A stretch of 64,000 nucleotides of DNA from Neofusicoccum parvum (Eukaryota > Ascomycota > Dothideomycetes > Botryosphaeriales > Botryosphaeriaceae): NCBI GenBank assembly GCA_020912385.1, contig CP087216.1, positions 1 through 64,000 of the forward strand, read 5' to 3'. The notes beneath the pieces were generated by a model. The model was not told where the DNA came from and ran no database searches. It saw nothing but the letters and a program-made list of their open reading frames with translations. Every line of letters begins with the position of its first letter. Position 1 is the first letter of the stretch. Shown in pieces: positions 12,735 to 61,105 of this stretch. The position numbers and the translations under genes were made by a program.

Positions 12735-12760
12735 CTCCTGGCAAAGACGCGCCTAGGAGT
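12722..12760 (+). promoter_or_regulatory. -1 ribosomal frameshift signal between gag and pol
   Basis: In the gag frame the sequence reads TCG GGA AAA GAG TAA. The heptamer G GGA AAA (12722-12728) fits X XXY YYZ. Five bases later ACTCCTGG (12734-12741) can pair with CC-T-AGGAGT (12752-12760, one bulged T) around a 10-base loop. Pol lies in exactly the -1 frame. The whole signal is kept in copy 2. Confidence 0.8.
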
Positions 12761-15700: not shown

Positions 15701-16552
15701 CCGGAGACAGACGGACAGACGGAAAACGCCAACAAGGAAATGGAAATCTACCTCCGTCATTACGTCAGCTACTACCAAGACGATTGGGTAGACTGGCTTG
15801 CCTCCGCAGAATACGCCGCTAATGGAAACATCTCCGCCTCGTCTACAGTGAGCCCCTTCTTCGTGGTCTATGGATACGAACCCCGTCTATCCTTCGACTG
15901 GACACCTACGCCTCCGGCCCCTACCGCCGCGGCCACCTGGAGCAGAGAAAGAGCCAACGAGATGGCAGATAAGATGCAGAAGGTCTGGGAATTCACAAAA
16001 TTCCACCTGCAGCAATCCCAGGAGAAGCAAGTAGAGTTCGCCAACCGTCACAGGAAGGATGTGTCCTACGAGGTGGGAGACAAGGTGTTTATCTCTACCA
16101 AGGACATGGATTTGGACCGACCCTCACGGAAGCTAGGATGGACGCGGATTGGACCATATCCCATTATCGAGAAGGTGGGAACCGCTTATCGTCTCCAGCT
16201 ACCCCCAGGCACCAATCGCGCCAACGTTTTCCATCCAAACAAGCTTACAAGGGACGATGGCAACCCTCTCCCCGGCCAAATACCAGAGCCACAGCCTGCG
16301 GTGCAGGTGGACAACAAGGAGGAGTACGTAGTGGAGTCCATTCTTGACTCACGCTTTACTGGTAAAGGAAAGAAACTCCAGTATAGAGTCCAGTGGGCGG
16401 ACTGGCCACCTGACCTCCAATGGTATCCCGCAGCCAACTTCAACCACGCGGTAGGAAAACTCAAGGAATTCCACGACTCCTACCCGGCGAAACCAGGACC
16501 ACCGAAGGAACTTCAACGGTGGATCCAGGAAAACAACGAGGCTGTCGAGTGA
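12728..16552 (+). CDS. pol: Pol polyprotein of gypsy copy 1 (PR-RT-RH-IN-chromodomain)
   Basis: Probably expressed as a Gag-Pol fusion by -1 frameshifting at 12722; the frame has no ATG near its start and is open from 12716. About 1270 residues. Domains in order: aspartic protease with VDTGALVYATV (about residue 50); reverse transcriptase with FRFCVDYRRLNAA and the catalytic FMDDILVYS (near 14140); RNase H from FLEVDSSDYVSGGVLS to YDKELFAIVRAF; integrase HHCC zinc finger (GHPGIQRTW...NCHSCKRAK); integrase core with D (SCDFVTKLP), D (IISDRGPQF) and E (TDGQTENANKEME); GPY/F module IGPYPIIEKVG; and a C-terminal chromodomain EYVVESILDSR...QWYPAANF that would target histone marks. No stops; all key residues are present, so the element may still be active. 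Confidence 0.94.
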   Translation, partial: RVTPGKDAPRSKEQALFTEVQVTSLWHPNPEPIIAHCTLSGQGKKIQVDAMVDTGALVYATVSRSLAHQIIEELGIIPIPLSKPIPYTVADGRSGKPITHKICPHLQVKNHWEATSPLLIMDLGNHDMLLGKGWLQAHGALPDANSNSVAFKPNFCTHPGRPAAAEPRKLNPTTPPKVEPWRPQGIITRNSFQADMKESLKEMRKELARNEEEGPPPPRKKVPRRDMQLVTAEGFLRSLKQEGTEVYHLRLWELLEEEEQARINAFQQQLPEELKELTPQLPEWLQDLAENFSKQRSDELPPSRPCDHKIELNQDPELRTPPLYRMSADELAAAKDYIEENLGKGFIEASRAPFGSPILMARKANGGFRFCVDYRRLNAATKKNKYPLPLIDETLARLTGARYFSKIDVRQAFHRIRMHEDSKDLTTFRTRYGSYRYNVLPFGLCNGPATFQQYMNEVMMAGLDDFCSVFMDDILVYSKTRKEHREQVRLVLKKLREAGLQADIKKCEFEVTETRFLGLIVGRDGIRMDPQKVAAILEWKAPISLRGVRSFLGLCNYYRRFIKNYSRIAKPLTDLTKNKVAWAWTPKCEAAFQALKDAVRSDPVLRHFDPAKPIFLEVDSSDYVSGGVLSQKDEEGKLHPVAYFSKKLSDTECNYTIYDKELFAIVRAFQEWSPECRSAQEPIQVFTDHETLRTFMTNKQLSRRQIRWAEELAEYDFKIVPIAGKKNERADALSRREQDLPANESDSRLTSMNRTALPPGSFTLAPLEPLEDPDLPTELRTANRADDALTAIRQDVSKHPEYSVRDGLLIFQENRLVVPQNDRIRLRLIQAAHRPPATGHPGIQRTWELLKERYYWNGMKKAVKRYVQNCHSCKRAKYKTESYNGLLKPLPIGDQPWKHLSCDFVTKLPNCRGFTAVLVVVDRFSKMRHFIPCHDTTTASQMAQIFRDNIWKYHGLPDTIISDRGPQFISEFWQGLCKLLQIDHRLSTAYHPETDGQTENANKEMEIYLRHYVSYYQDDWVDWLASAEYAANGNISASSTVSPFFVVYGYEPRLSFDWTPTPPAPTAAATWSRERANEMADKMQKVWEFTKFHLQQSQEKQVEFANRHRKDVSYEVGDKVFISTKDMDLDRPSRKLGWTRIGPYPIIEKVGTAYRLQLPPGTNRANVFHPNKLTRDDGNPLPGQIPEPQPAVQVDNKEEYVVESILDSRFTGKGKKLQYRVQWADWPPDLQWYPAANFNHAVGKLKEFHDSYPAKPGPPKELQRWIQENNEAVE

Positions 16553-22730: not shown

Positions 22731-25700
22731 CTCCTGGCAAAGACGCGCCTAGGAGTAAGGAAAAGGTTTTGTTCACTAAAGTGCAGATTACTTCCCTTTG
22801 GCACCCCAACCCAGAACCTATTATTGCACACTGTACACTATCTAGTCAAGGAAAGGAAATACAGGTAGATGCAATGGTGGATACCGGGGCCCTTGTGTAC
22901 GCTACTGTGAGCAAAAACCTCGCGCACCAGATGACAGAAGAGCTTGGGATTGTACCTATCCCCCTCTCCAAGCCAATCCCTTACACCGTTGCGGACGGAC
23001 GAAGCGGAAAGCCTATCACCTACAAGATCTGCCCACACCTCCAAGTCAAGGATCACTAGGAGGCTACGTCTCCCCTCCTCATCATGGACCTGGGAAACCA
23101 TGACATGCTACTAGGAAAGGGCTGGCTGCAGGCTCATGGTGCACTACCAGACGCAAACAGCAACTCAGTCACGTTCAAACCAGGATTCTGCACACACCCT
23201 GGTAAAACCGAGGCAGTGGAGCCAAGAAAGCTTAATCCAACGACGCCTCCCAAGGTAGAACCATGGCGACCCCAGAGAATCATTACTAGAAACTCCTTCC
23301 AAGCGGACATGAAGGAATCCCTAAAGGAAATGAGAAAGGAACTAGCTAGGAACGAGGAGGAAGGACCTCCTCCGCCTAGGAAGAAAGTACCAAGGCGGGA
23401 TATGCAGCTTGTAACTGCGGAAGGATTCCTGCGTTCACTGAAGCAAGAGGGCACTGAAGTGTACCACCTCCGTCTCTGGGAGCTGCTGGAAGAGGAGGAG
23501 CAGACGCGGATCAATGCCTTCCAACAGCAGCTACCCGAAGAGCTAAAGGAACTCACCCCTCAGCTGCCTGAATGGCTGCAGGACCTGGCAGAAAATTTCT
23601 CTAAGTAGAGATCAGATGAGCTCCCCCCATCAAGGCCTTGTAACCATAAGATTGAGCTCAACCAGGACCCGGAGCTACGCACGCCGCCTCTATACCGCAT
23701 GTCCACTGACGAGCTCGCGGCTGCAAAAGACTACATTGAGGAGAACCTAGGAAAGGGGTTTATTGAAGCAAGTAGGGCACCGTTTGGTTCACCTATCCTC
23801 ATGGCAAGGAAGGCCAATAGAGGATTCCGTTTCTGCGTGGACTACCGCCGCCTCAACGCAGCCACGAAGAAGAATAAATACCCACTTCCCTTGATTGACG
23901 AGACGCTAGCCCGGTTGACTGGAGCACGTTACTTCTCTAAGATTGACGTCAGACAAGCATTCCATAGGATCCGGATGCATGAAGACTCCAAGGACCTTAC
24001 AACCTTCCGGACGCGCTACGGGTCATACCGCTACAACGTCCTACCCTTTGGATTGTGCAATGGACCTGCCACCTTCCAGCAGTACATGAACGAGGTTATG
24101 ATGACCGGACTGGACAATTTCTACTCGGTGTTTATGGACGACATCCTAGTCTACAGTAAGACAAGGAAAGAGCATAGGGAACAAGTACGCCTGGTGCTGC
24201 AGAAGCTGAAGGAGGCAGGCCTCTAGGCAGATATCAAGAAGTGTGAGTTTGAAGTCACAGAAACCCGCTTCCTAGGCCTTATAGTTGGAAGAGATAGGAT
24301 TAGGATGGACCCCTAGAAAGTTGCAGCTATCCTAGAGTGGAAGGCTCCAACCTCCCTAAGAGGGGTGAGGTCGTTCTTAGGCCTCTACAACTACTACCGC
24401 CGGTTTATCAAGAACTACTCAAGGATAGCCAAGCCCCTCACCGACCTTATAAAGAATAAGATAGCGTGGGCCTAGACGCAGAAGTGTGAGGACGCCTTTT
24501 AAGCACTGAAAGATGCTGTCCGCTCAGACCCAGTGCTCCGCCACTTCGATCCGGTAAAGCCCATCTTTATAGAAGTCGACTCCTCTGACTACGTTAGTGG
24601 AGGGGTTCTCTCACAGAAGGATGAGGAGGGAAAGCTTCATCCAGTTGCCTACTTCTCTAAGAAGCTCTCTGATACGGAATACAATTATACTATTTATGAT
24701 AAGGAACTCTTTACTATCGTCCGCGCCTTTCAGGAATGGAGCCCCGAGTGCAGGAGTGCCCAGGAGCCCATCTAGGTGTTCACTGATCACGAGACTCTTA
24801 AGACATTTATGACCAACAAGCAGCTCTCCCGTCGCCAGATCTGTTAGGTAGAGGAGCTCGCCGAGTACAACTTTAAGATCATTCCTATTACCGGAAAGAG
24901 GAATAAGAGGGCAGATACTCTCTCTCGCCGCGAGTAGGATTTACCGGTGGATGACTCCGACTCGCGCCTAACCACGATGAACCGTACCGCTCTTCCACCT
25001 AGGAGCTTCACTCTATCTCCCCTTGAGCCGCTTGAGGACCCGGATCTCCCTATGGAGCTGCGGGCAGCTAACCGGATAGACGACGCCTTGACGGCCATCC
25101 GCCAGGATATCAGCAAGTACCCTAAGTACTCAGTGCGCGACGGCTTGCTCGTCTTCCAGGAGAACCGCCTTGTTATACCACAGGACGACCGCCTTAGGCT
25201 GAGGCTCATTCAGGCTGCTCATCGACCCCCAGCAACGGGGCATCCAGGCATCTAGCGCACCTGGGAGCTCTTAAAGGAGAGGTACTACTGGAATGGTATG
25301 AAAAAGGCAGTAAAGCGGTACGTGCAGAACTGCCACTCCTGCAAGAGGGCTAAATACAAAACGGAATCCTACAACGGCCTGCTCAAGCCGCTCCCCATCG
25401 GGGACCAGCCCTGGAAGCACCTATCCTGTGACTTTGTCACCAAGTTGCCAAACTGCAAAGGATTTACCGCCGTCCTGGTAGTGGTAGACCGGTTCTCAAA
25501 AATGCGGCACTTCATCCCCTGCTACGACACCACTACCGCGAGTCAAATGGCGCAGCTCTTCAGAGACAACATCTGGAAGTATCATGGCCTACCGGACACT
25601 ATCATCTCAGATCGAGGACCCCAGTTTATTAGCGAATTCTGGCAAGGCCTCTGCAAGCTCCTAAAGATTGACCACCGCCTTTCAACAGCCTACCATCCAG

Positions 25701-26548
25701 AGACGGACGGGCAAACAGAAAACGCTAACAAAGAAATAGAAATCTACCTCCGTCACTACGTTAGCTATCATCAGGACGACTGGGTAGACTGGCTTGCCTC
25801 CGCAGAATACGCTGCTAATGGAAACGTCTCCGCCTCCTCTACCGTAAGCCCCTTCTTTGTGGTCTACGGATATGAGCCCCGCCTATCCTTTGACTGGACG
25901 CCCACCCCTCCGGCTCCCACCGCCGCGGCTACCTGGAGCAGGGAAAGAGCCAACGAGATGGCAGAAAAGATGCAGAAGATCTAGGAGTTTACAAAATTCC
26001 ACCTGCAGCAATCCCAGGAGAAACAGGTGGAGTTCGCCAACCGCCACAGAAAGGATGTGTCCTACGAGGTGGGAGACAGGATGTTCATTTCTACCAAAGA
26101 CATGAACCTAGATCGGCCCTCGCGGAAGCTGGGATGGACACGGATTGGACCATATCCCATCATTAAAAAGGTAGGAACCGCTTACCGCCTTCAGCTACCG
26201 CCAGGCATCAACCGCGCCAACGTTTTCCATCCAAACAAACTCACGAGAGACGACGGCAACCCCCTACCAGGCCAGATACCGGAGCCGCAGCCCGCGGTGC
26301 AAGTAGACAACAAAGAGGAGTACGTGGTAGAGTCTGTTCTCGACTCCCGCCTTACTGGAAAAGGGAAAAAACTCCAGTATAGAGTCCAGTGGGCAGACTG
26401 GCCACTAGATCTACAGTGGTATCCAGCAGGTAACTTCAACCACGCCGCAGGAAAACTCAAGGAATTCCACGACTCCTACCCGGAGAAGCCCGGTCCACCA
26501 AAGAAACTCACACGGTGGATTCAAGAAAATAATAAAGCTGTCGAGTGA
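22724..26548 (+). pseudogene. pol of gypsy copy 2, broken
   Basis: Same domain order as copy 1: protease DTGALVYATV, RT with FMDDILVYS, RNase H, integrase with HHCC and DDE blocks, GPY/F module and chromodomain. Reading is interrupted by many TAG codons at Trp or Gln positions, for example near 23057, 23606, 24224, 24315, 24473, 24500, 24773, 24845, 24934, 25252 and 25981. The individual domains remain recognisable and no large deletion is visible. Confidence 0.9.
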
Positions 26549-39256: not shown

Positions 39257-39465
39257 ATATAAGTTGATGGAGAGTCCGGTATTGGCATACAACATATTTA
39301 TTAGAGAGCATCGCCTTGGCATCATGTGATTCCCGGGAGCCCAATCGGTTCTTTCCGCGCCAAGTCTTTGTGACTCACTTGCCCTCCATCCTGCCGTCCC
39401 CGCGCTGTTAACGCTGCGCCGTGACAAAGCCACCTGGGAATCATCCCACCATCTTGAAGAGAAAA

Positions 39466-41901
39466 ATGAGCCATCACTCCGTTTCACCTCCCGACAATGC
39501 ACAGGCGCCGGACCTTTGGAAGGGGCTCGACCGGCCGTTGTATTGCTTTGGAGAAAAGCAAGCATACCCGGATGAATGCCGATACTGCTCAGACCTGCAA
39601 ATCCAAGAAAGGGTTGAAATTTCGAGTGACCTATATTCAGGGTCACTAAAAGATCTCTGCTACCTCGCTTTCCACGCCATTTCTTCTGAATTTTCCCATG
39701 ATACCGATTTCTTCCGCGACCGAATCGATTCTGACGGGGTATGCTCGTTTTGCGACCATCTACGCCTAAAACTTTGGGGTAGAATCTCTAACATCAAAGT
39801 CCAACTGGATCCTCTCCCTGAAATCGAGGCCCGGCAGTCAATTTGTGGATTGTGTTCGCTGGTTGCGAAGACCGCGGCGCGTCTGAAACGTCACCGAGAC
39901 ATTTATCAGATTCGCCTGCAAACAAAACGATATGGCTCGTTCTCCTTGCATTTTCGAAGTCAATACATGACAATCTATGAGATTGAGATGAACAGCAAAA
40001 AGCTGGGTTCTGATCAAGCACGAATCCTTCTGGAAGCTGAGCTGTTCATCCCTGATACTATCAACTGGGAAAGGGTCCGAGCTCCATTATTGGAAGCAGC
40101 CGTTGCACCTGAGCCATTGGACCCCCATCCGACTGGATTCCGACTCATCGATGTTGAGAAATGCTGCGTTGTCAAAGCGCCAAGAACCTGCGAATACGTT
40201 GCGTTGAGCTATGTTTGGGGAGAAGCAAGATTGAATCGCAAGTTTCTACACCTCTCGTTGAGCAACTCCCAGGACCTGGAAGTGGAGTACAGTCTACAGG
40301 GTATAGGAATTCCTGCGACTGTCCAAGATGCCATGGCCGCTTGTCGTGGACTCGGAAAGCGATATTTGTGGGTCGATCGGTTTTGCATCCCCCAAGATGA
40401 ATCCAACAACCCCATCAAGAACGCCCAGATCAACGCTATGGATCGCATCTACAGTCACGCCGTTGTGGCCTTGGTTCCCCTGGAAGGAAATTCTGACTAT
40501 GGATTACCGGGAGTCTCCAAGCTGAAATGCAAGGCTCGGTATAGAACACAATTCTCCGGCCGCGAATTCTGGGAAACAAACACAAATGCAAACGGCTTTT
40601 TTGGAGACAAAGTACAACTGTCCAAGTGGAGTAGTCGCGGATGGACGTTTCAGGAAGGGACTTGTTCTCCAAATCTCCTCTTTTTTACAGACGACGGGCT
40701 TGTGGGTGAATATTCTGGTACGCGAGTATTCTTCGAGAGCGAAACTCCAACAGCGGTCTCAATTCCCAACTACGATTTCAGGCATCAGAATTTCAATGAC
40801 CGGTTCGGTTTCTTTCAATTCGGCGCTCACGAAGTATCAAGGAGAGAGTTCGGAAAAGACTCCGACATTCTCAATGCCTTTACCGGTGTCCTGAATGCAC
40901 TATTTGAAGGGCACCGATTCGGACTCCCAATGAAAGGCTTCGATGATGCTCTACGCTGGAAAGGGGAGCGGCCGTCCGAGCGCAGAGAATCCACGAATGA
41001 AAACAATTTTCCAAGCTGGTCCTGGGCCTCTGTTCGCAGCAACATTCATTGGGTCACCTCGGAATCAGTTCCCCTGGCAACATTTGGATTCCTGGAGGCA
41101 GACCGGTCAGACACACCATGTCTCGATCCATGTTGGCCGAGGAACATGGGCTTCCACCACAGTAGTCAAGACATTTTAGGAGCCGCGATTGCATGGCAGA
41201 CAGGATGCGTTGAAACACCTTTGCCTGAGCTCATACAATCTACCAGCAGTCCACAATTATTCGGAGCCTTTGTACAGGAGTTCAAGCGAAGCTATCCTAC
41301 CTTTATGAGCCTCTGGAAAGCAATGCGCGGTATTGAACCAAACGATTTGCCCTTGCAAAACTTCCGCGACAAGTTCTCAGCTGCTCAAATTGAAGCGGCG
41401 ATGAAGCCAGGACGCTTGCTAGCGTCGTCCCAAGTGACGACATCATCTGCTGTGCTGAAGTCCGTATACGATCCTTCATCTCCAGACCTCCCTTTTGGAG
41501 TAATTCAGATCTTCTTTGGGGAATCTAATGTTGGTTATGCCGATTTGGACACGGAACAGATTGTAAAGCGTCAAGTTCTGGTGGACGAGACTATGCTTGG
41601 CAAAGGGCGTTGGCCGGCTATATCGAATCCGCAAGATATGCGATCGAACATAGACCGATGTGACGTTTACTTTCTCGCCCTTACGATTTGTTCACTCTGG
41701 GGTCACTCCGGAGAATCACCTAGCGCTATCACTGACAGATTCACTTTCGATGATACCTGTTGTCCGTTCCTGAATTTGTATGTTACGGCCTTGGCAATTG
41801 AGACAAATTCGGGAATTTCGCGTCGACTTGGTCTCGCTTATTTTCCGTTGGACAATTGGTTGGAGCTGCCGCGCCAATTTAAGGCTGTTGTGCTGGAGTA
41901 G
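39466..41901 (+). CDS. HET-domain protein (heterokaryon incompatibility)
   Basis: 811 residues from ATG 39466; upstream in-frame sequence lacks an ATG. Single exon. The HET domain spans about residues 245-400: YVALSYVWGEA, IPATVQDAMAACRGLGKRYLWVDRFCIPQD, INAMDRIYSHAVVALVPL and SSRGWTFQEGTCSPNLLFFT. Cys pairs before it (CRYCSDLQ, CSFCDHL, CGLCSLV) could bind zinc. A W-rich C-terminal region (FPSWSWASV) is typical of the family. HET proteins trigger or take part in allorecognition cell death, and some are just paralogs of unknown role. Subtelomeric location is common for them. Its 3' end faces the RiPP-like gene (convergent, about 490 bp apart). Confidence 0.9.
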   Translation: MSHHSVSPPDNAQAPDLWKGLDRPLYCFGEKQAYPDECRYCSDLQIQERVEISSDLYSGSLKDLCYLAFHAISSEFSHDTDFFRDRIDSDGVCSFCDHLRLKLWGRISNIKVQLDPLPEIEARQSICGLCSLVAKTAARLKRHRDIYQIRLQTKRYGSFSLHFRSQYMTIYEIEMNSKKLGSDQARILLEAELFIPDTINWERVRAPLLEAAVAPEPLDPHPTGFRLIDVEKCCVVKAPRTCEYVALSYVWGEARLNRKFLHLSLSNSQDLEVEYSLQGIGIPATVQDAMAACRGLGKRYLWVDRFCIPQDESNNPIKNAQINAMDRIYSHAVVALVPLEGNSDYGLPGVSKLKCKARYRTQFSGREFWETNTNANGFFGDKVQLSKWSSRGWTFQEGTCSPNLLFFTDDGLVGEYSGTRVFFESETPTAVSIPNYDFRHQNFNDRFGFFQFGAHEVSRREFGKDSDILNAFTGVLNALFEGHRFGLPMKGFDDALRWKGERPSERRESTNENNFPSWSWASVRSNIHWVTSESVPLATFGFLEADRSDTPCLDPCWPRNMGFHHSSQDILGAAIAWQTGCVETPLPELIQSTSSPQLFGAFVQEFKRSYPTFMSLWKAMRGIEPNDLPLQNFRDKFSAAQIEAAMKPGRLLASSQVTTSSAVLKSVYDPSSPDLPFGVIQIFFGESNVGYADLDTEQIVKRQVLVDETMLGKGRWPAISNPQDMRSNIDRCDVYFLALTICSLWGHSGESPSAITDRFTFDDTCCPFLNLYVTALAIETNSGISRRLGLAYFPLDNWLELPRQFKAVVLE

Positions 41902-42387: not shown

Positions 42388-43912
42388 TTATTCGATCGTC
42401 TGCTTATACCCCGATTTGATAAGACGCTCAGCCTCAGGATTCAAAAGAGTAAGCGGCTGTGGACCCGTCAGTTTCGTGGCCAGCCACTTAATAAGGCCCA
42501 AGCAGTGAATGGTGTGCTGCAAGTAAAAATCATTGATGTTGCTCTTCCCAATCTCAATCGCGTCCGCCAGAAAATCAGCACAGTGATACTGATGCTGCCC
42601 CTCGAGTGCGTACCCGTACCCAACCTCGTTCCCTCCCTCGGGCAGCCCGGGCATGTACATTGTCGGCGTGAAGCCCAGCTCTGCCGCGGACTTTGGCGTG
42701 CGCCCGGTGACGTAGAGGTAATTGTTCAGAACGCTGACGCGGTCAGCATCGCTGTCGGCAGCCTGGTACCGCTCCGTGAGGACGGCCGGCACGTGCCAGC
42801 GGTCCACGACGTCAGAGCGGAGATGTAAGGGGAAGAGGAAGAACTCCTTACCGCTCTCGGACGTCTCGCGCAGGGACGAGCGCCGCATGTTGCCGAACGC
42901 CTTCTTGCGCAGTGCGTCCATCTTGGCCTCCGACTTCGCCACAAAGCCGCTGTCGGCGGAGCGCTTGTCAAGTCCCTCAGCGGCAGAGGCAGCGGAGTCC
43001 CTATACCACGGCGGGTCGGCGATTTCGGCGCGCTTTTCGTTGGATTCGATGCTCTCGGCGACCGAGGCAGCAGAATCGCGGTACCACGGAGGGTCGGCAA
43101 TGACGGCGCGCTTCTCCTTGTCATCGATACCTTCTGCCACGGCAGCCGCGGAGTCACGGTACCACGGAGGGTCAGCAATGACAGCGCGTTTCCTCTTGTC
43201 ATCAAGCCCCTCAGACACCGATGCTGCAGAGTCGCGGTACCACGGCGGGTCAGCGATCTCCGCACGCTTCTCAGCGTCTAAACCCTCCGAGACAGAGGCG
43301 GCGGAGTCACGGTACCACGGTGGGTCGGCGATGACCGACCGCTTCTCTGCATCGAGACCTTCAGAAGCCGAAGCAGCAGAGTCACGGTACCACGGCGGGT
43401 CCGCAATCGTCGCACGCTTCTCTGCGTCTGCGAGCCCTTCGGAGACGGACGCGGCCGAGTCGCGGTACCACGGCGGATCAGCGATCTCGGCACGCTTCTC
43501 CGCATCAAGCCCCTCGGAAACCGATGCAGCGGAGTCTCGGTACCATGGCGGATCGGCGATGGTGGAGCGCTTCTCCTTGCTGTCAAGACCCTCCGCAACA
43601 GAGGCGGCCGAATCACGGTACCATGGAGGATCCGCGATCGTGCCGCGCTTCTCCTTGTCCGCCTCGATTCCCTCAGAAACAGAGGCAGCAGAGTCGCGGT
43701 ACCAAGGCGGATCTGCAACGGTAGAGCGCTTGTCTTTGTCGAGACCCTCCGCAACGGAAGCGGCGGAATCGCGGTACCACGGAGGGTCGGCGATAACTTC
43801 GTCACAGGTCAGTATGAGGAACGGGGTCGGCTGTGTGGCGATTGGAAGACATACCAGCAGGCAGTGCCAGAGCATTCACTGCGTACAGCGAAAGAACGAA
43901 TGTTGTCCGCAT
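42388..43912 (-). CDS. Kex2-repeat RiPP precursor fused to an HxxHC (UstYa-like) domain
   Basis: Two exons, 43912-43855 and 43796-42388, joined across a 58-nt intron (GTATGT donor, TACTGAC branch, GAAG acceptor). Product 488 residues. Exon 1 encodes a signal peptide (MRTTFVLSL..., ending near ALALPA); without splicing the repeats have no secretion signal. Eleven repeats of about 25 residues follow, each with the invariant core ADPPWYRDSAA, then an acidic spacer such as SVSEGLDAE and a Lys-Arg pair for Kex2-type cleavage. After the array (to about 42962) comes a 190-residue C-terminal domain with HQYHC (42594-42580) and HTIHC (42516-42502), 21 residues apart, the paired HxxHC signature of UstYa/DUF3328 oxidases. 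Dikaritin pathways (ustiloxin, phomopsin, asperipin) use Kex2-repeat precursors and separate UstYa proteins that cross-link Tyr/Trp-type side chains. Here both appear in one chain. The Trp-Tyr pair is the obvious modification target. The domain assignment is inference from motifs. The frame is intact. Confidence 0.85.
42962..43796 (-). repeat. Eleven-unit tandem coding repeat
   Basis: Imperfect repeats of about 75 bp, one per predicted core peptide. The DNA varies at third positions and in the spacers, while ADPPWYRDSAA is unchanged in all 11 units. This pattern indicates selection on the peptide rather than recent duplication alone. Confidence 0.92.
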
Positions 43913-44791
43913 AATGGATTCAATGGCAAGAACCTTGACGAAAAAATGTGATTGCGAGAAATGAGCTCCTTTATTAAGCGTGTAGAGCTCAAGTAAGGGT
44001 TGCTTGGTCTGCCCATAAGTCCGCTGCCAGTAAGTTTTATATATTCCTGTCTATGGTGGCAGCCGACACTGAAATCACATCATTTCTGGAATTGCATCTG
44101 TTCAAACCTGTTCTTGCGCTATCGACGTCGGCAAGAGAAAGTCTGGTCCCGATAGTATGTCATTTCTGAAATGGGTAGGTGGAGGATTCTTTGCCCCACA
44201 CGCAGTGCATCTTGTATCGGGCACATCCTGAGGTAGGGACGGTGTACACGTTCCGTTCGTATCTGCATGCTTTCACACGCTTATCGGCAGTCTTGATTCA
44301 GGCTCATATGGCACTATGAGCTGTAAATGCTGTGATAGGTATAGCAGCAGAGGATCTTCGTTTACCAACAGTGAGGAAGCTGTTGGACCCAGCAAGGGTG
44401 TGAACGCAATCGGCATAGATGAGCAAATCGCTATCGATTAATTATTGAGGAATAGTTTCCTGGAATGTGACTTCTTTGCAGAGGGTAAGACCTCTTAACG
44501 TGGTTTCTGGGAGGATCCCCATCCTAATACTAGCTCGAGGCTAAAATATTACTGCATATTTCCGCAGGTGGAACGACTCGTCTGAGCGCAACTCAACCCG
44601 TATCATGCAGAATATGTAGGATGAGAAATATTCCCCGCAGATCTACATATATCACTGGTTTCTTTAGGAAACTACTGGCGAATGAAAAAAAAAAAAAAAA
44701 CAAGGAAACTCAAAGTTCATTTCCTCATTCTTTGAAGCTCTAGCTGCCGTATTGAACATGACAAAGAACGTAGGGCCCCCAAAGGTAGGGT
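43913..44791. other. Upstream region of the RiPP-like gene
   Basis: About 880 bp between the RiPP-like gene start and the 3' end of the UstYa gene, both on the minus strand. It presumably holds the promoter. A poly-A run lies at 44684-44700. No gene is seen. Confidence 0.5.
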
Positions 44792-45838
44792 TTACACCTC
44801 CGAAGCATGCTGATCCTCCCACGTCACTATGGAATCAAAGTTTCGGCACTTGTGCTTCGTGCTCATGTCTGGAACCAGCTCTTTGGAATTCTCGGGATCT
44901 CTAGTTAGCAGGACTGGCGTGACATCACTGTTACACATCAAGGTAACACGTAGAATTTCCACGCAGTCCTCTAAGGGCAAAGTCAAACACTCGATCCCTG
45001 AATTTCTCAGACGGGGTGACTTACCAACGTGCTTCTGAACGGCATCCGGAGTGCCGTGAAATGCCTCTGGTAGCTCACCCATGCTTTCCAAGAACTCGTG
45101 GGTGTAGATCCAGCGGCGTAATGTTGACTTGGATTTGGGTGGATATCAGTCAAAGAAAACCGTTCAAGCAACAAACCGTATCAACTTACAAGACAATGTA
45201 GCTGTTGGTGCATCTCCAGCTGGATAGCAAGACCACCTTTTTTTGTATGAATCCACGAGTCATCATGGGTCTTGTTCAAACGTGACAGTTCTTCTACTGG
45301 CATGTCTATGACACGTTCTGGCTTGTGTATAAGCATAAAACTTCGACTTTCGACCTCAAGAAACTTACGTTTCTCAAGTGCATCCCATGCCTTCTCGCGT
45401 TCGTATGTCGGAGGTCCTCGGTAGACGGAGTCTGTGGTATCGCCGATGTCGAGAGTAGTCCACCGGTAATCGACAACGCTGGCATCGATGACGGGTGCTG
45501 TAAAGTGAATCAGTGTTGTAGAAGGTTAGCAGACCGGAAGCAGACTTACAATCAGCAAACAGGTGTTGTGTGCATTGCTCGTCATCAACGTAGCACCTTG
45601 GGCACTGGCTCCTTGCTGAATATCTCGCAGCAACGCCGATTGCAGCGACTGATAGTAGAAAGAGTATGGCGTTGAGGGCAAGCAGTATCACCGTCCCCCG
45701 CGAAACATTTGCCCTTTTGAGCTTCCAAAGTGGCTCGAAACGATCAAGCTCGAGCTTCTCCTCTTCGCTTGCCATGTCTTCTACTTGCTCGCCCTCCTCA
45801 CGGGGAATGGAGGTGTACTGTAGCTGTGAGTTGTTCAT
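44792..45838 (-). CDS. UstYa-family (DUF3328) membrane protein
   Basis: Five exons: 45838-45550, 45497-45369, 45317-45190, 45127-45025 and 44970-44792. All introns are 51-62 nt with GTAAGT donors, and phases match throughout, giving 275 residues. One transmembrane helix (about residues 47-70, VILLALNAILFLLSVAAIGVAA) follows a short acidic cytosolic N-terminus. The lumenal part has SPVIDASVVDYRW, YRGPPTYEREKAWDAL, then MHQQLHCLSTLRRWIY, HVEDCVEILRVTLMCNSDVTP and the end motif HKCRNFDSIVTWEDQH, all in the family order. The family catalyses oxidative cyclisation in RiPP and other peptide pathways. Oddly, both HxxHC motifs deviate (QQLHC and HVEDC), so catalysis or metal binding may differ. It lies next to the repeat precursor, same strand, about 880 bp upstream. 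Confidence 0.88.
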
Positions 45839-46691: not shown

Positions 46692-47459
46692 ATGGCATCT
46701 CTCTTGAAAGACAGCTTTTCAATCTTCAACAAGGAAGGCTCGGTTCCCAGATCCGAGTACCTTCTCCCGCACGATGCGTCCTCGGAGACGGACGAGATCG
46801 ACCATGAGAGATTCCCCTCGTCCAAGCATCGAAGGGCATCTTCTCGCTCAAGCTTCATCCTCTCTCTGCTCCTAAAACTCCTCGTAATCTTCCTAGCCGT
46901 CTGGGGCATCGTCGACATCGTCATGAGCCTCTGGACCACAACGCACAGCAACAACGCACCTCAGTACCCTTCCTCCAGCAGGAACGGGGACCAGCAGCAG
47001 GATCAAGAAGACCGCCCATCCTGTGCGTGCGGCAACTCCATCGCCGAAGCCAAGACCCTGCACCACTGCACATACGACACCATCGCGGCCGCCTGGCTGC
47101 CTCCGCACTGCCGCGACGACGAGCTAGCCGCAGAGTTCGACACCGTGGGCCCGGAGCCCAACGGGTCGTGGCCGTATTACACCGACTGGGACAAGAACGG
47201 CAGACTGACGATCGAGGAGGTCGCCGCACTGGCGGACGTTGGAGGTCACTTCTTCACGACGCATGAATGGCACATTGCGCACTGCACGTACAGCTGGCTG
47301 AAGCAGGTGCGGGCGCAGGAGAGAGGGACAGTTATTGAGAAGAGGTCGACGACGGAGGGGCATACGAAGCACTGCGGGATGATGGCGTTGAAGCGGGATG
47401 CGTTGGACGAGGTGGTGACGGGGAGCGGGGTCGCGTTGAATGCAGACGTGCTGCATTAA
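46692..47459 (+). CDS. Single-pass membrane protein with two HxxHC motifs
   Basis: 255 residues, single exon, starting at MASLLKDSFSIF; the frame extends further upstream but the extra residues look non-coding. A basic serine-rich N-terminus leads into one transmembrane helix (about residues 56-78, SFILSLLLKLLVIFLAVWGIV). The lumenal part reads CACGNSIAEAKTLHHCTYD, AAAWLPPHCRDDELAAEFD, WPYYTDWDKNG, then HEWHIAHCTYSWLKQ and TEGHTKHCGMMAL. HIAHC and HTKHC repeat the paired HxxHC signature of UstYa-type oxidases, although the surrounding sequence belongs to a different subfamily. With the two neighbours this makes three HxxHC proteins in 5 kb. A role in modifying the repeat peptide is inferred from position only. 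Confidence 0.75.
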   Translation: MASLLKDSFSIFNKEGSVPRSEYLLPHDASSETDEIDHERFPSSKHRRASSRSSFILSLLLKLLVIFLAVWGIVDIVMSLWTTTHSNNAPQYPSSSRNGDQQQDQEDRPSCACGNSIAEAKTLHHCTYDTIAAAWLPPHCRDDELAAEFDTVGPEPNGSWPYYTDWDKNGRLTIEEVAALADVGGHFFTTHEWHIAHCTYSWLKQVRAQERGTVIEKRSTTEGHTKHCGMMALKRDALDEVVTGSGVALNADVLH

Positions 47460-54327: not shown

Positions 54328-54964
54328 ATGCCTAAGGCGCCTTCCACTCAACGCCGCCACGGCCTAGTAGCTCGCTGTGTCTACTTGATGCCTGCTCCTT
54401 GTAGTGCGTGCCGTTCGGCCGGTGCGCATTGTTTTGTTAGCCTCGCGTCGGGGCATTGCAAGCGTTGTTTGGTTAAGAATCGCAAGTGCGATTTGGTGGT
54501 GACTCGTGGCGATTGTGAGTGTCGTGTAGCGGTGTGAGGTGTTCTTCTAACGCATCCTAGGGAGCAAGCTGGATTCTGAGCGGGAGCGCCTTCGTCGCCA
54601 GTTGGAGGAGGCGGAGGATGCCGAGGCTGCTGCTCGTGCGAAGGTACGACGGTTACGCAAGGTTCTTCGTGAGGTAGATGCGCGGGAGAAGCGTATGTTT
54701 GAGCGAGAGCTTTCCTCGATTGAGGAGATGGAGCGGCTGGAGAAGGAGGATCGCGCTGCGCGGCGTGCAGCTGGTGAGGATGTACCGACTCCTGAGCGTT
54801 CTCCGAGCCCTCCGCTTCCTGGTCCCTCCGATCCTCGGGTTCCGTCGCTGGACTCGGTGGCTGGAGTTGCGTTCCCTTCTGGTGCCGAGTTGTGGATGGA
54901 TCCTTCTTTTTGGGACGCCCCCGTTTCCGCGGAAGGTCAGGGTTCTGGCGATGGAACTCTGTAA
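54328..54964 (+). CDS. Antisense accessory gene of gypsy copy 3 (Cys-rich plus coiled coil)
   Basis: Two exons, 54328-54514 and 54561-54964, across a 46-nt intron (GTGAGT donor, CTAAC branch, CCTAG acceptor); 196 residues. It is encoded opposite to gag-pol and overlaps the last 580 bp of pol. The N-terminus has cysteine pairs CSACRSAGAHC and CKRCLVKNRKC, resembling a zinc-binding module. After the junction (GDW, then SKLDSERERLRRQLEEAE) there is a long charged coiled coil to about residue 125, then a proline-rich tail ending PSFWDAP and so on. Predicted proteins of this build are common as hypotheticals in ascomycete genomes. I recognise the type but know no function. The splice restores a continuous frame, a strong sign that it is a real gene. 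Confidence 0.75.
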
Positions 54965-57900
54965 CTAGGTCTGGGTGTATGTCTTCCTTTGGTATCCACT
55001 GGTTATCCTCATTCCCGTATCCTTCCCATTTGACCAGGTACTTAAGCTGATGACCGAACCGCTTACAGTCCAGGATCTTCTCTACTGGGTACTGTTTTTC
55101 TTCGGCGTCCGGGTTTTCTGGTACAATTTCTTCTTGGGTTTCTGGGATGTTGGCGTCCTCTGGTGCTGGCTCGAGCAGTGAGACGTGGAAGGTGGAGTTC
55201 ATCCTTGTGTTTGACAGTTTGAGTCGATAGGTGACTTCTCCAAGTTTTTCTTCAATCTTGAATGGGCCAATTTTTTTGAAGTCCAATTTGTCGTTTGGCC
55301 GTTTGGTCTTGATGTTTTTCCTAAGGAGATAGACCTTATCCCCCCTCTTGAGGTTCGGTGCCGCCTGGTGCCGTCTGTTGTAGTATTTAGACATCATGAT
55401 TCTGACGTACTCGAGGTCAAGGCTGATAGCCTTATGAAGCTCTTTCAGCTGCTCGGCTTTGAGGATACCACTTTGCGCTAGCTTTCTACTTGGGATCGTT
55501 TCTCTGTAGGCTTCTGGTTCAAACCCGTAATTGGCGAAGAACGGTGATTCGTTCGTGGATTCTTGTTTGGAGCTGTTGTAGGCGAATTGGGCCATGGGTA
55601 GTAGTTCTGCCCAGTTCTCCTGTGGATAGTTGATATAACAGCGGAGGTATTGTTCAAGAGTCCGGTTCATTCGTTCGGTTTGACCGTCGGTTTGTGCGTG
55701 TGCTGTGGTAGCGAGCTTGCTTTTCGTTCCTAGTTGGCGCATGACTGTTTGCCAGAATTCAGAGGCCATGAGCTTGTCTCTGTCCGACACCATTTCTTCC
55801 GGCATTCCGTGATCCGCGAAGATGGTTCGTAGGAACGTGTAGGCGAGCTGTTCTGCATTGGATGCCTCGAGGTAGGGTAAGAAGTAGGCGTACTTCGTGA
55901 GTCGGTCGACGAAGACGAGGATTGAGTCGTACGAGACTCCTGTAAGGGGATCCTTTGACCTAGGTAGCTTGGTAACGAAGTCCAACGTGATGGACTGCCA
56001 TGGTCGTTTAGGTGCTTCCAGCGGCTGTAGGAGGCCATAAGGTGCATGTGTCGCGGCCTTGCTTCTGATGCAAAGATCGCACTGCGAGACTACACGCTGT
56101 ACGGTTTTCCTTAGTCCTGGGAAGTAGTAGTTCCTCGTAATTCTTTCCGTTGTCCTGTCGATGCCCTGATGTCCGTGTGCTGGGGCTTCGTGGATGTCTT
56201 TCACTAGTGCTTCTCGTAGCCGTGTTGGTACATAGATGAGTCCTTTAAAGAGAAGCGTTCCTTCTCTATCTCGAGCAATACGCGGATCGTCCTCAAGCGC
56301 TAAAAGTTCCTGCGCGAAGGAGTCCTGGGCGTATGCTTCTCGGATCTGCTGGTGCCATGGGTTCGGCTCGATGCGTAGCATGGGTAGTGTTTGTCTAGCA
56401 AGGAGGAGCGATCCATCGCTATCCTCTGCAAAGATTGCAGGGTGCGGCTCGGTTTTTCCTTCCATATAATCTACTCTTCGGCTGAGCGCGTCAGCTGCGG
56501 CGTTCTCGGATCCCTTTCTATAGGTGATCTTGAAGTCATAGGAGGCCATTTCTTCTGACCAGCGAACCTGCCGTCGGTTCAATTCCTTGGTCGTGGTGAA
56601 GCGTGTGAGATTCTGATGATCACAGCGTACTACCACCTGGTGGCTTGCTCCTTCGAGGTAATGCCTCCATTGCTTAAAAGCTGAGACAATGGCTAGAAGC
56701 TCCTTATCGTGAATGTCGTAGTTGAGCTCTGCCGGGGTGAACTTCCTAGAGTAGAACGCGACTGGGTGCCATCTACCTTCTCCGTCAGGCTGGCTGAGAC
56801 ATGCTCCAAGGGCGAATCCTGACGCATCAGTTTCCACTTCGGTGGGCTTGTCGGGGTCGTATATCCCGAGTACTGGGGCTTCGCAAAACATCCGTTTAAG
56901 CGAGTCAAATGCCCGTTGCTGATCGTCTTCCCATTTAAAGCCATGCTCCTTTCGCGTAAGCCTAGTTAAAGGTTCCGTGACTCCGGAGTAGTTCCAGATG
57001 AACTTCCTGTAGAAGTTCGCGAATCCTAGGAAGGACTGTACTTCCTTGATCGTCTTTAGTACTGGCCATTCTCTAATGGAATCCAGTTTCGAGTCGTCCA
57101 TGCCGACGTGACCTGGGGTGATGATAAAGCCTAAGAATTCCGTTCTCTAGACGTGCCATTCACACTTCTCGGGTGCGATAGAGAGGTTCTTTGTTTGGAG
57201 GGCTTCTAGGACCTTTCGTACATGCTTCTTATGTTCCTCAAGGGTTTCTGAAAAGATGAGGATGTCATCAAGGTAGGCCATGCAGAAGATATCCAGGTAT
57301 TCTTGCAGCGTGTCGTTGACGAGATTCTGGAATGTTGCCGGAGCGTTGGTAAGCCCAAATGGCATTACCGTATACTCGTAGAGTCCTAGCCTCGTTCTGA
57401 AGGCTGTTTTCCATTCTTCCCCTTCTTTGATCCTGACTAGATGGTATCCTTCCCGGAGGTCCAGCTTCGTAAAGTACTTTGCTTTCCTTAACTTGTCCTG
57501 GAGCTCGTCGATGCGAGGGAGAGGGTACCGGTTCTTGATCGTAATATCGTTTAGCTGTCGGTAGTCGACACATAGGCGTAGCTTGCCGTTCTTCTTTGGG
57601 ACAAAGAGGATTGGGTATCCGGCTGATGACGTCGAAGGTCTGATATATCCTCGTTCAAGGTTCTTCTCGATATAGTCCCTGAGTGCTGTCATCTCCTTCT
57701 CTGATAAGGAGTAGATGGGTTTGTAGGCTGGCTTCGTGCCTGGTTTGAGTGGGATTTCGTGGTCCCACGGTTGATGCTTAGGCAAGTCTCCTTTTCCTCT
57801 TTCCTGGCAAACGGTTTTTAGATCCTAGTACTCGCTGGGTACCGTTTCCATTTCGGGTATCGGCGGATATCCATACGGGTTGTTCTATATTTCCAGACTG

Positions 57901-59069
57901 CTGTGTTGTCCTCTTGCGATCCTCGCAGGATCGTCGCCTCCTAGCGGAGCGGGAATGTCCTTATTCTTTAGCCTTTCTCTTTGGGCTCTGGCCAGTGCTC
58001 TCTGTTGCACCGCCGGTGAGGCTTTGAGGTATATAAGGCATACCTGATGCCTTTGGCGTCTTATACGTTTGAATGCCTCTCCTGAGATTATCTGGACGTC
58101 GATCTGAGGTTCTAGGGCTGCTAATTGCTTACGCGAAGCTTTACTCTTAGCCTTACGCCGCTTCCTCGTAGTCCTTCGTGTCGTGTGTTGTACTTCTGGT
58201 TCCTGAGAAGTGTCGGTCTCGGTTGGTCTTACTCCGTTCGAGGTGTTGCATTTTACCGAGGAGGCCTTGTTGCTATCCTGGTTCTGACTTATTCCGTCCT
58301 CGAGGTGGCTGTTGATGTTGCCGTTGCTAGGTCTTATGCCATCCTGGTTGACCGTGTTGGGGGTATCATTTCGCTCAGTAGGGCTTATTCCTACCGATGG
58401 GTTGCATTTTACCGAGGAGGCTTCGCTACCTGCGTCGCAGTCCTGGTCCTGACTTATACCACTATCGGAGTTGCCTACACAGTTACCACATTCAGGCCTT
58501 ACACTGGCTACTTCCCGTGTTGATGCTGCTAGGAGTTTCCTTAGGGTATCTAACAACCCGTTTTCCTTCTCCAGCCCTTGTTTTCGTAAGAGGTTTTCAA
58601 GGTCCTCTTAAAAGATGATGGAGTCTCCTTCTCCAAAGTCGAAGATTGGTTTTTGTGTCCTTACCCAGGGCATACCGAGGATGATATCATGCCCGGGGAC
58701 GCGTTGGACGTCGAGGGAAATCTGTTCCTGGTGATTCCCTATTTGGAGGGTTGCTTCCTCCGTTTCTATTTTTACCCAGCCTTGTCCATAGGCTGCCTAA
58801 GAACCGTCAAACCCGCTGAGAGGGTATGGGTCCTGTTTCTTACGGTAGGGTATATTCATCTTCTGCACAAGCTCGTTGTGGATGAAATTTCCGCACGATC
58901 CTGTGTCAATCAGGATCCTCGTGGGTACTCCGTTAAGTGTCCCTTTCGTCTTGAACTGTTTCCATAGGTTTGGTCCGGTGAGAGTTTCCGTGTTCGAGGT
59001 GCGTGATACCATATTAAGGGACCTAGACTGCGGCCCCTGCTGTTGTCCCTTGGCTGCAGGGCCGTCTAG
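54381..59069 (-). pseudogene. pol of gypsy copy 3, five nonsense codons
   Basis: One frame from the frameshift site (codon CTA at 59069) to the stop at 54381, broken by TAG 58799, TAA 58610, TAG 57887, TAG 57827 and TAG 57149 (first base, minus strand). Each fits Gln or Trp altered by C-to-T/G-to-A. Domains: protease ILIDTGSCGNFIH, an S/T/N-rich linker, RT with [11 protein letters not shown] and [10 protein letters not shown], RNase H EVETDASGFALGA, integrase HHCC and DDE blocks (LDFVTKLP, MVSDRDKLMASEFW, TDGQTERMNRTLEQ), GPF module IGPFKIEEKLGE, chromodomain EKILDCKRFG...WEGYGNEDNQWIP and an AT-hook-like KRGRPKK. A 170-residue low-complexity tail lies opposite the antisense gene. From 57101 on, all is open. 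Confidence 0.9.
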
Positions 59070-59075
59070 TTTTTT
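59032..59075 (-). promoter_or_regulatory. -1 ribosomal frameshift signal of gypsy copy 3
   Basis: On the minus strand gag ends TCA AAA AAC TAG. A AAA AAC (59075-59069) is a canonical slippery heptamer. After a 5-base spacer, GGCCCTGC (59063-59056) can pair with GCAGGGGCC (59040-59032, one extra G). Pol is in the -1 frame (K-K-L-D-G-P). Confidence 0.8.
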
Positions 59076-61036
59076 GACTGGTGCCTTTGGCCTTCCCAGA
59101 GTAGGAAGAGGTTGTTGCGAGTCCATCCGCTTGGTCCCCATCCCTCTATTTCCCATTCCTCGATAACTCGGTGCGTCCCATCTTGCTGTACGCGTACCGG
59201 AAACCAATGGTTTTCATTCTTCTGACGCCTGTGCGTTCTGCACTGATGGTCGATGTATGAGATCCATGCAATCTGTCGATGCTTCTTATGCCGGGGGTTG
59301 AGGCGTTCGTCGTCTTCTGGGAGGATCTGGTGACTCGGCCTTGGGATCTGTCGAAGGGCTTTCCATTTAAGGCCTGGAACGGCTATTTCCATGCTAGGAA
59401 ACATTCTTGCCCTTTCTTCTTCTTGGGCGAGTGTCCTCTGGGTCGCTAGATTGTCTTCAGGAGTGACTTCGTCTGTTTCCGTGTGACGATCCTCATAGAC
59501 ACGCGTCTCCCACAGCTGATCCCCCTGTACCTGCCAGGTGACTAACGCGAGTCCTGGCTGGTTGTCTGGGATCCAAATGCCTTGCTCCGACTCGCCGTGG
59601 TGGAGGGGGATCTTGGCAATGATGCCGTATTCCTCTACTTTCTCAAGGAGCCTGTTAATAGCGCCTGCTAATGGGCTCTCCTCCACCTCTACGAGGTCCT
59701 TTTCGTCGGAGCTATCTTCCTCGGCTTCGGTACTATCGTAGAATTCTCCATCCTCACTGTTGACGATCTCGTCGTCGTGTGGGAATGACTCGACAATGTC
59801 GTCGAGGTCGAGCATTTCCTCGTTCCTGGTAAGCATGGCGATGCCTCTTGGTTTCTTCGGGTACCACCCTGTGGCGTCCTTGTCGCTCTGGTGGGTTGTG
59901 CAGTCGTCGTTAAAGCAGGCGGTCCAGCTTAGCGCGTCGTGGTTTTCTTGTCGAGACACGACGGAAGCTTCCCGTTGAGCACTAGAGGTTTGCTTTCCTC
60001 CTTTCTTATTGCGGTTCTCTGGGCACTTAGGCGAGAAGTGCTTGTCGCTGCCACAGATGATGCAAAGTCGGTCCTTGTACCGCTGCTTCTGCTCGTCCGT
60101 CCAGTTCGGATTAGGCCCCTTAGGCTTCTTGTCGTTGTGTCTGCTGTTGTTGCCCTTCTTGGAGTCCTGTCTACTGGCGGCGTCGAGGGCCATAGCATCG
60201 CCTCCCTCCAGCGTGGTACGTTCGCGGCGTGGCTTGTTCGTGTTTGCTTGGTAGCCGCCCTTCTTCTCGAACCACCTGTTGGTGCGTCTCCTATCCATGT
60301 CGGTGGCTAGGCGGACTAGTTCCGAGAGCGTTTCGGGTTCGTCGTGGTAAGACATAGCCTCTTTGATTTCGTCCTTCAGGCCTCGGTAGTACAGCTGTCG
60401 GAGTGTGTAGTCTGAGTGCTCTCCGGCGACGTAGGCTGCTTCCTGGAATTCGGCCGTGTAGTCGAGTACTGACTTCTTCTGCTGGATCCTGAAGAGGATC
60501 TGGTTGGCACGCTTGGCCTCGTCAATAGCGTTGAACGCTTCCTGGAGCTGCTTGGCGAAGGTCCTGTAGTCGGAGAAGATAGCCTGAGTCTGAGGCGACC
60601 ATTGCCAGTGCGGCTTCTCCTGAGTCTCTCTCTTGTAGGGCCTGAACCACTTCTCTGCTGCTCCTCGGAGGAAGGTGCTAGCGTAGCGAACCTTATCTGC
60701 GTCGTTACCGAATTGTCCTTTGGCGAAGTGTAGATAGTCCTCTAACTGCATGAGGAAGCTTTGCGTCTTGGTACGTTCGCCATGGTAAAGGTCCGGCTTC
60801 GGCACCTTGACCTGGGCGGATGGTTTCTTTGCGGCATCTGGCCCGGTGGCCTGATCCTGTCGGTTCTTCAGGATGCGGTTCTCGACTCGCAGCTCCTGGA
60901 TCATCTGCATAAGTTCTCTCATGGTAGGCTCCGTTTGCTCCTGGTGAGCAGGCTGAGCGGCCTCTTGAGCCGGTGTCTGAGGAATCGCTGGACGATCCTG
61001 TCCTGCGCTGACGTCCTCCATGTTGACCGTACTCAT
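59066..61036 (-). CDS. gag: Gag protein of gypsy copy 3
   Basis: 656 residues, intact, starting MSTVNMEDVSAGQ. The capsid-type retrotransposon gag domain lies at about residues 80-260 (VKVPKPDLYHGERTKTQSFL, ASTFLRGAAEKWFRPY, FAKQLQEAFNAIDEAKRA, EFQEAAYVAGEHSDY, LYYRGLKDEIKEAMSY). A zinc knuckle CIICGSDKHFSPKC follows (CX2CX4HX4C, about residue 325). The long acidic C-terminal extension (about 300 residues, with a W-rich end) is unusual for gag and has no motif I recognise. The stop is at 59068-59066, right after the slippery heptamer. No nonsense codons, in contrast to pol of the same element. Confidence 0.9.
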   Translation of the reverse strand: MSTVNMEDVSAGQDRPAIPQTPAQEAAQPAHQEQTEPTMRELMQMIQELRVENRILKNRQDQATGPDAAKKPSAQVKVPKPDLYHGERTKTQSFLMQLEDYLHFAKGQFGNDADKVRYASTFLRGAAEKWFRPYKRETQEKPHWQWSPQTQAIFSDYRTFAKQLQEAFNAIDEAKRANQILFRIQQKKSVLDYTAEFQEAAYVAGEHSDYTLRQLYYRGLKDEIKEAMSYHDEPETLSELVRLATDMDRRRTNRWFEKKGGYQANTNKPRRERTTLEGGDAMALDAASRQDSKKGNNSRHNDKKPKGPNPNWTDEQKQRYKDRLCIICGSDKHFSPKCPENRNKKGGKQTSSAQREASVVSRQENHDALSWTACFNDDCTTHQSDKDATGWYPKKPRGIAMLTRNEEMLDLDDIVESFPHDDEIVNSEDGEFYDSTEAEEDSSDEKDLVEVEESPLAGAINRLLEKVEEYGIIAKIPLHHGESEQGIWIPDNQPGLALVTWQVQGDQLWETRVYEDRHTETDEVTPEDNLATQRTLAQEEERARMFPSMEIAVPGLKWKALRQIPRPSHQILPEDDERLNPRHKKHRQIAWISYIDHQCRTHRRQKNENHWFPVRVQQDGTHRVIEEWEIEGWGPSGWTRNNLFLLWEGQRHQSKN

Positions 61037-61105
61037 TGCTGTTTCCTAAACTCGTTAGGGGGTGATACCTTACCCGATGTTCTCTTACCCTTCCTTGCAA
61101 GGATG

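Follow-up and report, generated by a model that had tools for sequence, protein, structure and literature searches.

A Kex2-type repeat precursor joined to a UstYa-like domain in one open frame of Neofusicoccum: a candidate fungal counterpart of the plant fused burpitide precursors

Introduction

Dikaritin precursors carry a signal peptide, and a tyrosinase is encoded in the ustiloxin and phomopsin clusters and is not known to be needed for asperipin-2a. The sections of the literature drawn on here describe dikaritin precursors and their enzymes as products of separate genes (PMC6514808, PMC7329392), and the known UstYa-dependent products as cyclized through Tyr (PMC7329392). CctR is a characterized DUF3328 hydroxylase; in the portion of the report cited here it is a stand-alone membrane protein that is challenging to purify, holds two coppers per chain, has its HxxHC pair on adjacent helices of one monomer, and carries an N-terminal membrane helix and dimer-forming cysteines that make inter-chain disulphides in its C-terminal part (PMC12435403). 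The same portion notes that a similar four-histidine plane is found in BURP domains and CctR (PMC12435403).

Joining a precursor to its modifying enzyme is not new in itself. Borosins, which are not known to be secreted through a signal peptide, differ from the gene described below in having a methyltransferase as the enzyme and the core at the C-terminus. They are represented by OphA (omphalotin) and are described as fungal RiPP precursors fused to their own modifying enzyme (PMC6514808). For plants, the text cited here names both “fused” and “split” burpitide pathways (PMC11253845), and in the fused kind, such as SkrBURP, repeated cores and a copper peptide cyclase of the BURP-domain family are encoded by one gene, likewise. 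The Kex2-processed repeat proteins (KEPs) have the same repeat layout and dibasic spacing as our gene; by the cited passages, one KEP survey at first analyzed these proteins without their C-terminal part (PMC6339444), and DUF3328 genes near KEPs were counted by Pfam profiles (PMC7329392). Among the titles and abstract openings listed from the open-access literature, with subscription papers mostly outside the scope of the search, no fusion of a precursor with UstYa is described, and the motif strings searched had no match in a relevant open-access paper. With borosins and plant burpitides already known as precursor-enzyme fusions, a version with a UstYa domain would be a new variant within this limited literature scope.

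Results and Discussion

A precursor and a UstYa-like domain in one open frame

The gene lies on the minus strand of a 64,000-nt window (the whole stretch of DNA that was analyzed) at 42388-43912, coordinates that an initial annotation had given correctly with the strand left out. Its features are as follows.

44036..44043, minus strand: possible core promoter TATATAAA, 131 bases upstream of the ATG, a consensus match only
43855..43912, minus strand: exon 1, starting with ATG and encoding MRTTFVLSLYAVNALALPA, a leader that is signal-peptide-like by hydropathy and by similar leaders in relatives
43797..43854, minus strand: 58-nt intron, GTATGT...ACTGAC...AAG (donor, branch-like sequence and acceptor), predicted from splice motifs and frame
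42388..43796, minus strand: exon 2, one open frame with the repeat array, the C-terminal domain and the stop codon
42961..43791, minus strand: the 11 ADPPWYRDSAA repeats and their dibasic sites, up to and including the KR in front of the domain
42391..42960, minus strand: UstYa/DUF3328-like domain of 190 residues, without a membrane helix and with only two cysteines
42580..42594, minus strand: metal-binding-type motif 1, HQYHC, in the same open frame as the repeats
42502..42516, minus strand: metal-binding-type motif 2, HTIHC, in the same open frame as the repeats

Translation of the spliced frame gives a product of 488 residues with a signal-like start, the repeat array and the C-terminal domain. 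We infer the splicing from the gene's own letters, splice motifs and frame agreeing on the previously proposed intron (43854-43797). Exon 1 gains support from the relatives with a complete-looking N-terminus, whose hydrophobic leaders resemble its product and terminate in LPV, IPV or comparable residues; the signal peptide that had been proposed is likewise signal-like by hydropathy and by its likeness to these leaders, as opposed to a call by a dedicated predictor. A putative signal peptide, Kex2-site repeats and a core with the aromatic residues W and Y together give the gene the appearance of a dikaritin-type precursor.

The repeat array and its selection

The frame contains exactly 11 copies of ADPPWYRDSAA, the number given in the initial annotation, with a dibasic site between the two members of each of the 10 successive pairs and a KR leading from the last copy into the C-terminal domain. 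Such repetition is more than chance, because none of five third-order Markov versions of the window had an 11-mer that recurred within a single frame, all six frames being scanned. In the real window, the six 11-mers with the most copies are simple repeats, present in 12-21 overlapping copies.

Are the units simply recent copies of one another? Across the 55 pairs of core units there were 330 synonymous nucleotide differences and not one that was non-synonymous (10, 0 and 320 at codon positions 1, 2 and 3), as against 160 synonymous and 159 non-synonymous differences in the six codons after the cores (81, 18 and 220 at the three positions). The units, therefore, are not merely recent copies, and the counts indicate that the core peptide is held fixed by strong purifying selection. 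Pfam matches to TMEM252, DUF5885, DUF6348 and Vgb_lyase were rejected as repeat-region hits resting on composition, most of them without a single stretch that passed alone.

Relatives and the spread of the fusion

Two protein searches gave 48 distinct relatives (P0001-P0048), all with E below 1e-7 and, where a protein name is given, called “hypothetical” or “uncharacterized.” By a pattern count that required at least one WY repeat and an HQxHC domain, repeat and domain occur in one chain in 28 of the 48. Another 17, of 108-235 residues, have the domain without a repeat, most of them beginning at or inside the domain and looking truncated (in P0037, 39 residues of other sequence precede it), and in three of the 48 the domain is broken off before HQxHC. 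Because the fusion recurs in 28 of the 48 relatives, it is very improbable that the window's gene is really two genes or a chimera of the assembly, and we regard it as practically certain that precursor and UstYa-like domain are truly joined in one gene.

Organism names were attached to 12 relatives from 11 taxa, namely Nemania, Biscogniauxia, three Xylaria taxa, Xylariaceae sp., Xylariomycetidae sp., Cladosporium, Zopfia, Trypethelium and Paraconiothyrium. Lineage look-up placed Xylaria bambusicola in the Sordariomycetes and Zopfia, Paraconiothyrium and Neofusicoccum in the Dothideomycetes; the named relatives thus span at least two fungal classes, and the fusion is no local accident.

Across 166 pattern-picked repeats, counting those of the window, WY is followed by a variable residue (T, S, R, A, K) and this in turn by D in 96%, S in 96% and A in 87%, in a profile whose W and Y are 100% by construction and whose position +4 was restricted to six residues by the search pattern. 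A tree of the window and 41 of the 48 relatives suggests two clades: PPWYRDSA-type cores predominate in one of 12 rows and T[ND]WYxDSA-type cores in one of 25, the support values being 91/90 and 87/90, neither starred (midpoint root, rows without a readable repeat included). In several relatives, among them Nemania P0007, Xylaria P0016 and Zopfia P0011, a single R or no basic pair stands between repeats. Given the single-R spacers, Kex2 may not be the sole processing protease in these fungi.

Of the 28 relatives with both parts, 26 resemble the window in having a dibasic site ahead of the domain; in P0028 and P0031 its place is taken by ER and VR. The initial annotation had supposed that a fusion would fix stoichiometry and co-secretion, an idea that needs qualifying: with KR in the window and dibasic sites in 26 of the 28 relatives, lasting co-secretion as one chain is not implied. 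The KR suggests instead that the single chain is probably transient and cut by Kex2. If the domain acts in cis, therefore, it must do so ahead of that cut, or else its action is in trans after it.

What, then, would a released domain act upon? It could be a real UstYa-type enzyme that, once Kex2 has freed it, works in trans on some other substrate or on extracellular peptides, with the repeats serving as a linear signaling peptide of the Kex2-processed-repeat type. The dibasic sites just described are compatible with this, a chain with a signal-like leader and no membrane helix could yield a freed domain that is secreted, and Kex2 repeat proteins without nearby DUF3328 genes are, in the passage cited, considered to give linear peptides in some groups (PMC7329392). 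Conservation of the fusion across two fungal classes, however, implies a functional tie of the repeats to the domain, and the cores have an oxidizable W-Y pair, and we consider this reading quite unlikely.

The C-terminal domain as a divergent UstYa

Both motifs that had been noted in the window, HQYHC and HTIHC, were found in the reading frame of the repeats as HQYHC(x21)HTIHC, which is the HxxHC(x)nHxxHC pattern of UstYa/DUF3328, and both occur exactly 21 residues apart in 44 of the 48 relatives; the remaining four end or leave frame before the pair is complete. The highest 19-residue hydropathy in the domain is 0.59, in keeping with the lack of a membrane helix, and its two cysteines both lie within the motifs.

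How firmly can this domain be tied to UstYa? The window's domain scored 13.1 bits, below the Pfam cut-off of 25, and the 13 relatives with individual PF11807 scores were also all below 25 bits. Among Pfam matches with E up to 1, UstYa was even so the most frequent, for 11 of 12 domain sequences (best E 0.0011) and then for 37 of 46 sequences (best E 1.6e-4), and the match extended over both motifs (profile positions ~104-173) in distant members such as P0034, P0038, P0040 and P0043. NCBIfam gave no match for the C-terminal domain, and, with E up to 1 allowed, neither the window's domain nor any of the 12 domain sequences matched BURP. The alignments made were A3, comprising the window and 11 of the 21 relatives then known, and A4, comprising the window and 45 of the 48 relatives (P0045, P0047 and P0048 left out).

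In comparison by hhalign, the domain profile matched five UstYa open frames of the same genome at E 2e-4 with both motifs in register, a score reached by none of 200 column shuffles, and the reversed profile gave E 0.2. The 46-row profile matched seven UstYa proteins at E 6e-5 over the first motif only (28 columns), and here the best of 100 shuffles, 35.5, came close to the real score of 37.6; a profile of the 42 fuller rows of A4 scored 35.0, clear of the highest of 200 shuffles (24.9), though its alignment, too, took in just the first motif.

AlphaFold2 run with 46 sequences gave five models with pLDDT of 92.9, 86.4, 73.2, 67.1 and 64.2, the best of which (pTM 0.84) places its two HxxHC motifs on successive helices, one on each (residues 120-137 and 144-160). 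An earlier model from 22 sequences was poor (pLDDT 60.5) and was not used. By this prediction the fused domain would resemble CctR in having its HxxHC pair on two helices, and it differs from CctR in being without a membrane helix or any cysteines beyond the motif pair. Structure prediction, which the initial annotation had looked to for a family placement, thus yielded the arrangement of the motifs without a clear fold match in the PDB: Foldseek gave 20 matches to the domain model with a best E of 1.8, VIA-align over 96 chains a best Z of 2.9, and a PDB sequence search with the domain profile four unrelated matches with a best E of 0.41. This lack of a match is uninformative, because PDB sequence searches with the neighboring UstYa and with a five-sequence UstYa profile returned nothing, that is, no solved UstYa was found; the absent match does not show a new fold.

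An unrelated domain that binds some other metal, or none, and that arrived at the HxxHC pair by convergence would also have to be reconciled with these results. It would account for every individual score obtained falling below the family cut-off and for the lack of a clear match among solved structures, and the motif spacing of 21, versus 30 in a classical UstYa of the same genome, fits it as well. It is harder to square with UstYa being the commonest Pfam match (37 of 46) and covering both motifs in distant members, and with the agreement of motif order, helical placement and UstYa neighbors. We judge convergence improbable, and conclude that the C-terminal domain is of UstYa descent, as a divergent UstYa/DUF3328, which is probable and not proven.

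One consequence concerns earlier surveys of KEPs. They could overlook fusions of this kind because the domain falls below the Pfam cut-off and the C-terminal part was excluded. Tools that seek a repeat precursor and a separate UstYa gene could have the same blind spot and miss the fused family.

Neighboring genes

Two further UstYa-type genes lie within 4 kb of the fused gene.

44792..45838, minus strand: neighboring UstYa (PF11807) gene, whose product has a membrane helix, judged by eye, and HQQLHC and HVEDC as altered forms of the motifs
46692..47459, plus strand: neighboring open frame with HIAHC(x25)HTKHC, a membrane helix by eye and a start codon chosen by eye

The first, which supplies the nearby UstYa gene expected of a dikaritin locus, encodes a product that shares 99% identity with a DUF3328 protein of Neofusicoccum parvum. 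In P0050, the one further relative that the search gave for it, the motifs read HQLYC and RLDHC. The fused precursor has beside it a UstYa subgroup whose metal site is altered. The second gave no significant profile match, and a link to UstYa by profile was not obtained; from its motifs it is possibly a divergent UstY protein. Also nearby are an ankyrin gene, a porphobilinogen deaminase gene and a gene for a HET domain (heterokaryon incompatibility), the last of which stands beside the peptide gene at 39412-41901 on the plus strand. Ty3/gypsy-type retroelement frames flank the locus (12716-16552, 23609-25984 and 54381-61045), which is near the contig start.

With two UstYa-type genes adjoining it, the fused domain is perhaps not the sole enzyme. 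The statement that the precursor carries “its own” UstYa-like domain accordingly keeps the support of the motif pair and the commonest Pfam match, and loses the implication that no other enzyme takes part. The main rival to our interpretation goes further and makes the fused domain an accessory of these neighbors that escorts or partners them without catalysis, as a substrate presenter, chaperone or subunit, with the membrane-bound UstYa proteins acting in trans. The adjoining genes invite such a reading, as does the requirement for both UstYa and UstYb in ustiloxin biosynthesis stated in the cited part of one review (PMC6514808), and the fused domain has neither a membrane helix nor extra cysteines. 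A dead partner, however, would be expected to lose its metal site, and what we see is the reverse: both HxxHC motifs are kept in the fused domain of 44 of the 48 relatives, the other four being cut, and it is the adjacent PF11807 protein (HQQLHC, HVEDC) and its relative (HQLYC/RLDHC) that are altered. This argument misses the second neighbor, at 46692-47459, which has two intact HxxHC motifs. On balance, a non-catalytic role for the fused domain seems unlikely to us, if less so than the two alternatives discussed above.

A proposed mechanism and its implications

The interpretation we prefer is that of a fused RiPP precursor-oxidase, which as a whole explanation we consider moderately likely. 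The signal peptide would take the chain into the secretory pathway, where the C-terminal domain, taken to be short, soluble and related to the UstYa/DUF3328 dicopper enzymes, would bind two copper ions through its two HxxHC motifs and oxidize the W-Y-x-D-S-A core, most likely by a Tyr (or Trp) side-chain cross-link or else by another oxidative change. Kex2 cleavage at the dibasic sites would then give eleven copies of one peptide and the freed domain, exopeptidases would trim the peptide ends, and the neighboring UstYa-type proteins might contribute later steps or team up with the fused domain. We infer copper binding, oxidation, substrate and the order of these steps from sequence. That the domain acts on its own repeats strikes us as likely; that it does so before Kex2 cleavage is rather doubtful, if quite conceivable. 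The single-chain substrate-plus-oxidase of the initial annotation is in this sense half established: one frame does join a Kex2-type precursor to a UstYa-like domain, and oxidase activity is putative.

The gene shares with the dikaritins (ustiloxin, phomopsin and asperipin-2a) a putative signal peptide, Kex2-site repeats, an aromatic core, a probable UstYa-type HxxHC(x)nHxxHC enzyme and an adjoining UstYa gene. It departs from them in that precursor and putative enzyme are one open frame, in that its contig has no tyrosinase match, and in the fused domain itself, which is shorter, seems to be soluble and scores under the PF11807 cut-off. The gene is best read as a fungal counterpart of the plant “fused” burpitide precursors, which it would work like without being a member: the domain families are unrelated and the kingdoms different, only the fungal repeats have Kex2-type flanks, and catalysis by the fungal domain is putative. 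Could this extend to a widespread fungal family of self-modifying RiPPs, every chain having multiple W-Y-x-D-S-A cores and a short, soluble, secreted UstYa-type dicopper cyclase that acts on them in cis within the secretory pathway, before Kex2 release, so as to parallel the fused burpitides of plants by an independent route and with a copper domain not related to theirs? We offer this broader proposal tentatively, as a little short of an even chance.

If the domain does modify its own repeats, one gene would be enough for a cross-linked fungal peptide, making both discovery and laboratory production simpler, and the fused gene may be a self-modifying peptide factory overlooked by standard annotation. 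If the parallel is true, the joining of a copper cyclase to repeated substrates would have arisen independently in two kingdoms. Additionally, a natural DUF3328-like domain that is soluble could aid structural work.

The fused gene in its genome

The genome searched comprises 44 Mb in 18 contigs. A second copy of the domain was sought, and besides the gene itself there was only one match, at E 0.8; the four repeat matches were all at the fused-gene locus. Within the reach of this search, the fused gene occurs once in the genome. The kexin P-domain family had one match in the genome, and the tyrosinase family 26, none of them on this contig (contig 11). No other Kex2 repeat array was found in the unspliced frames of the window, of 30 kb of neighboring contig and of five 3-kb UstYa loci, a serine/alanine-rich low-complexity frame in the repeat scan having been disregarded. 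Two more UstYa matches lie 40 kb along the same contig (C11:84062-86908), with no Kex2 repeat array near them in the unspliced frames of C11:64001-94000. On another contig, several UstYa matches at C1:183762-187886 are near a tyrosinase match at C1:192397, a group that is possibly an ordinary dikaritin-type cluster.
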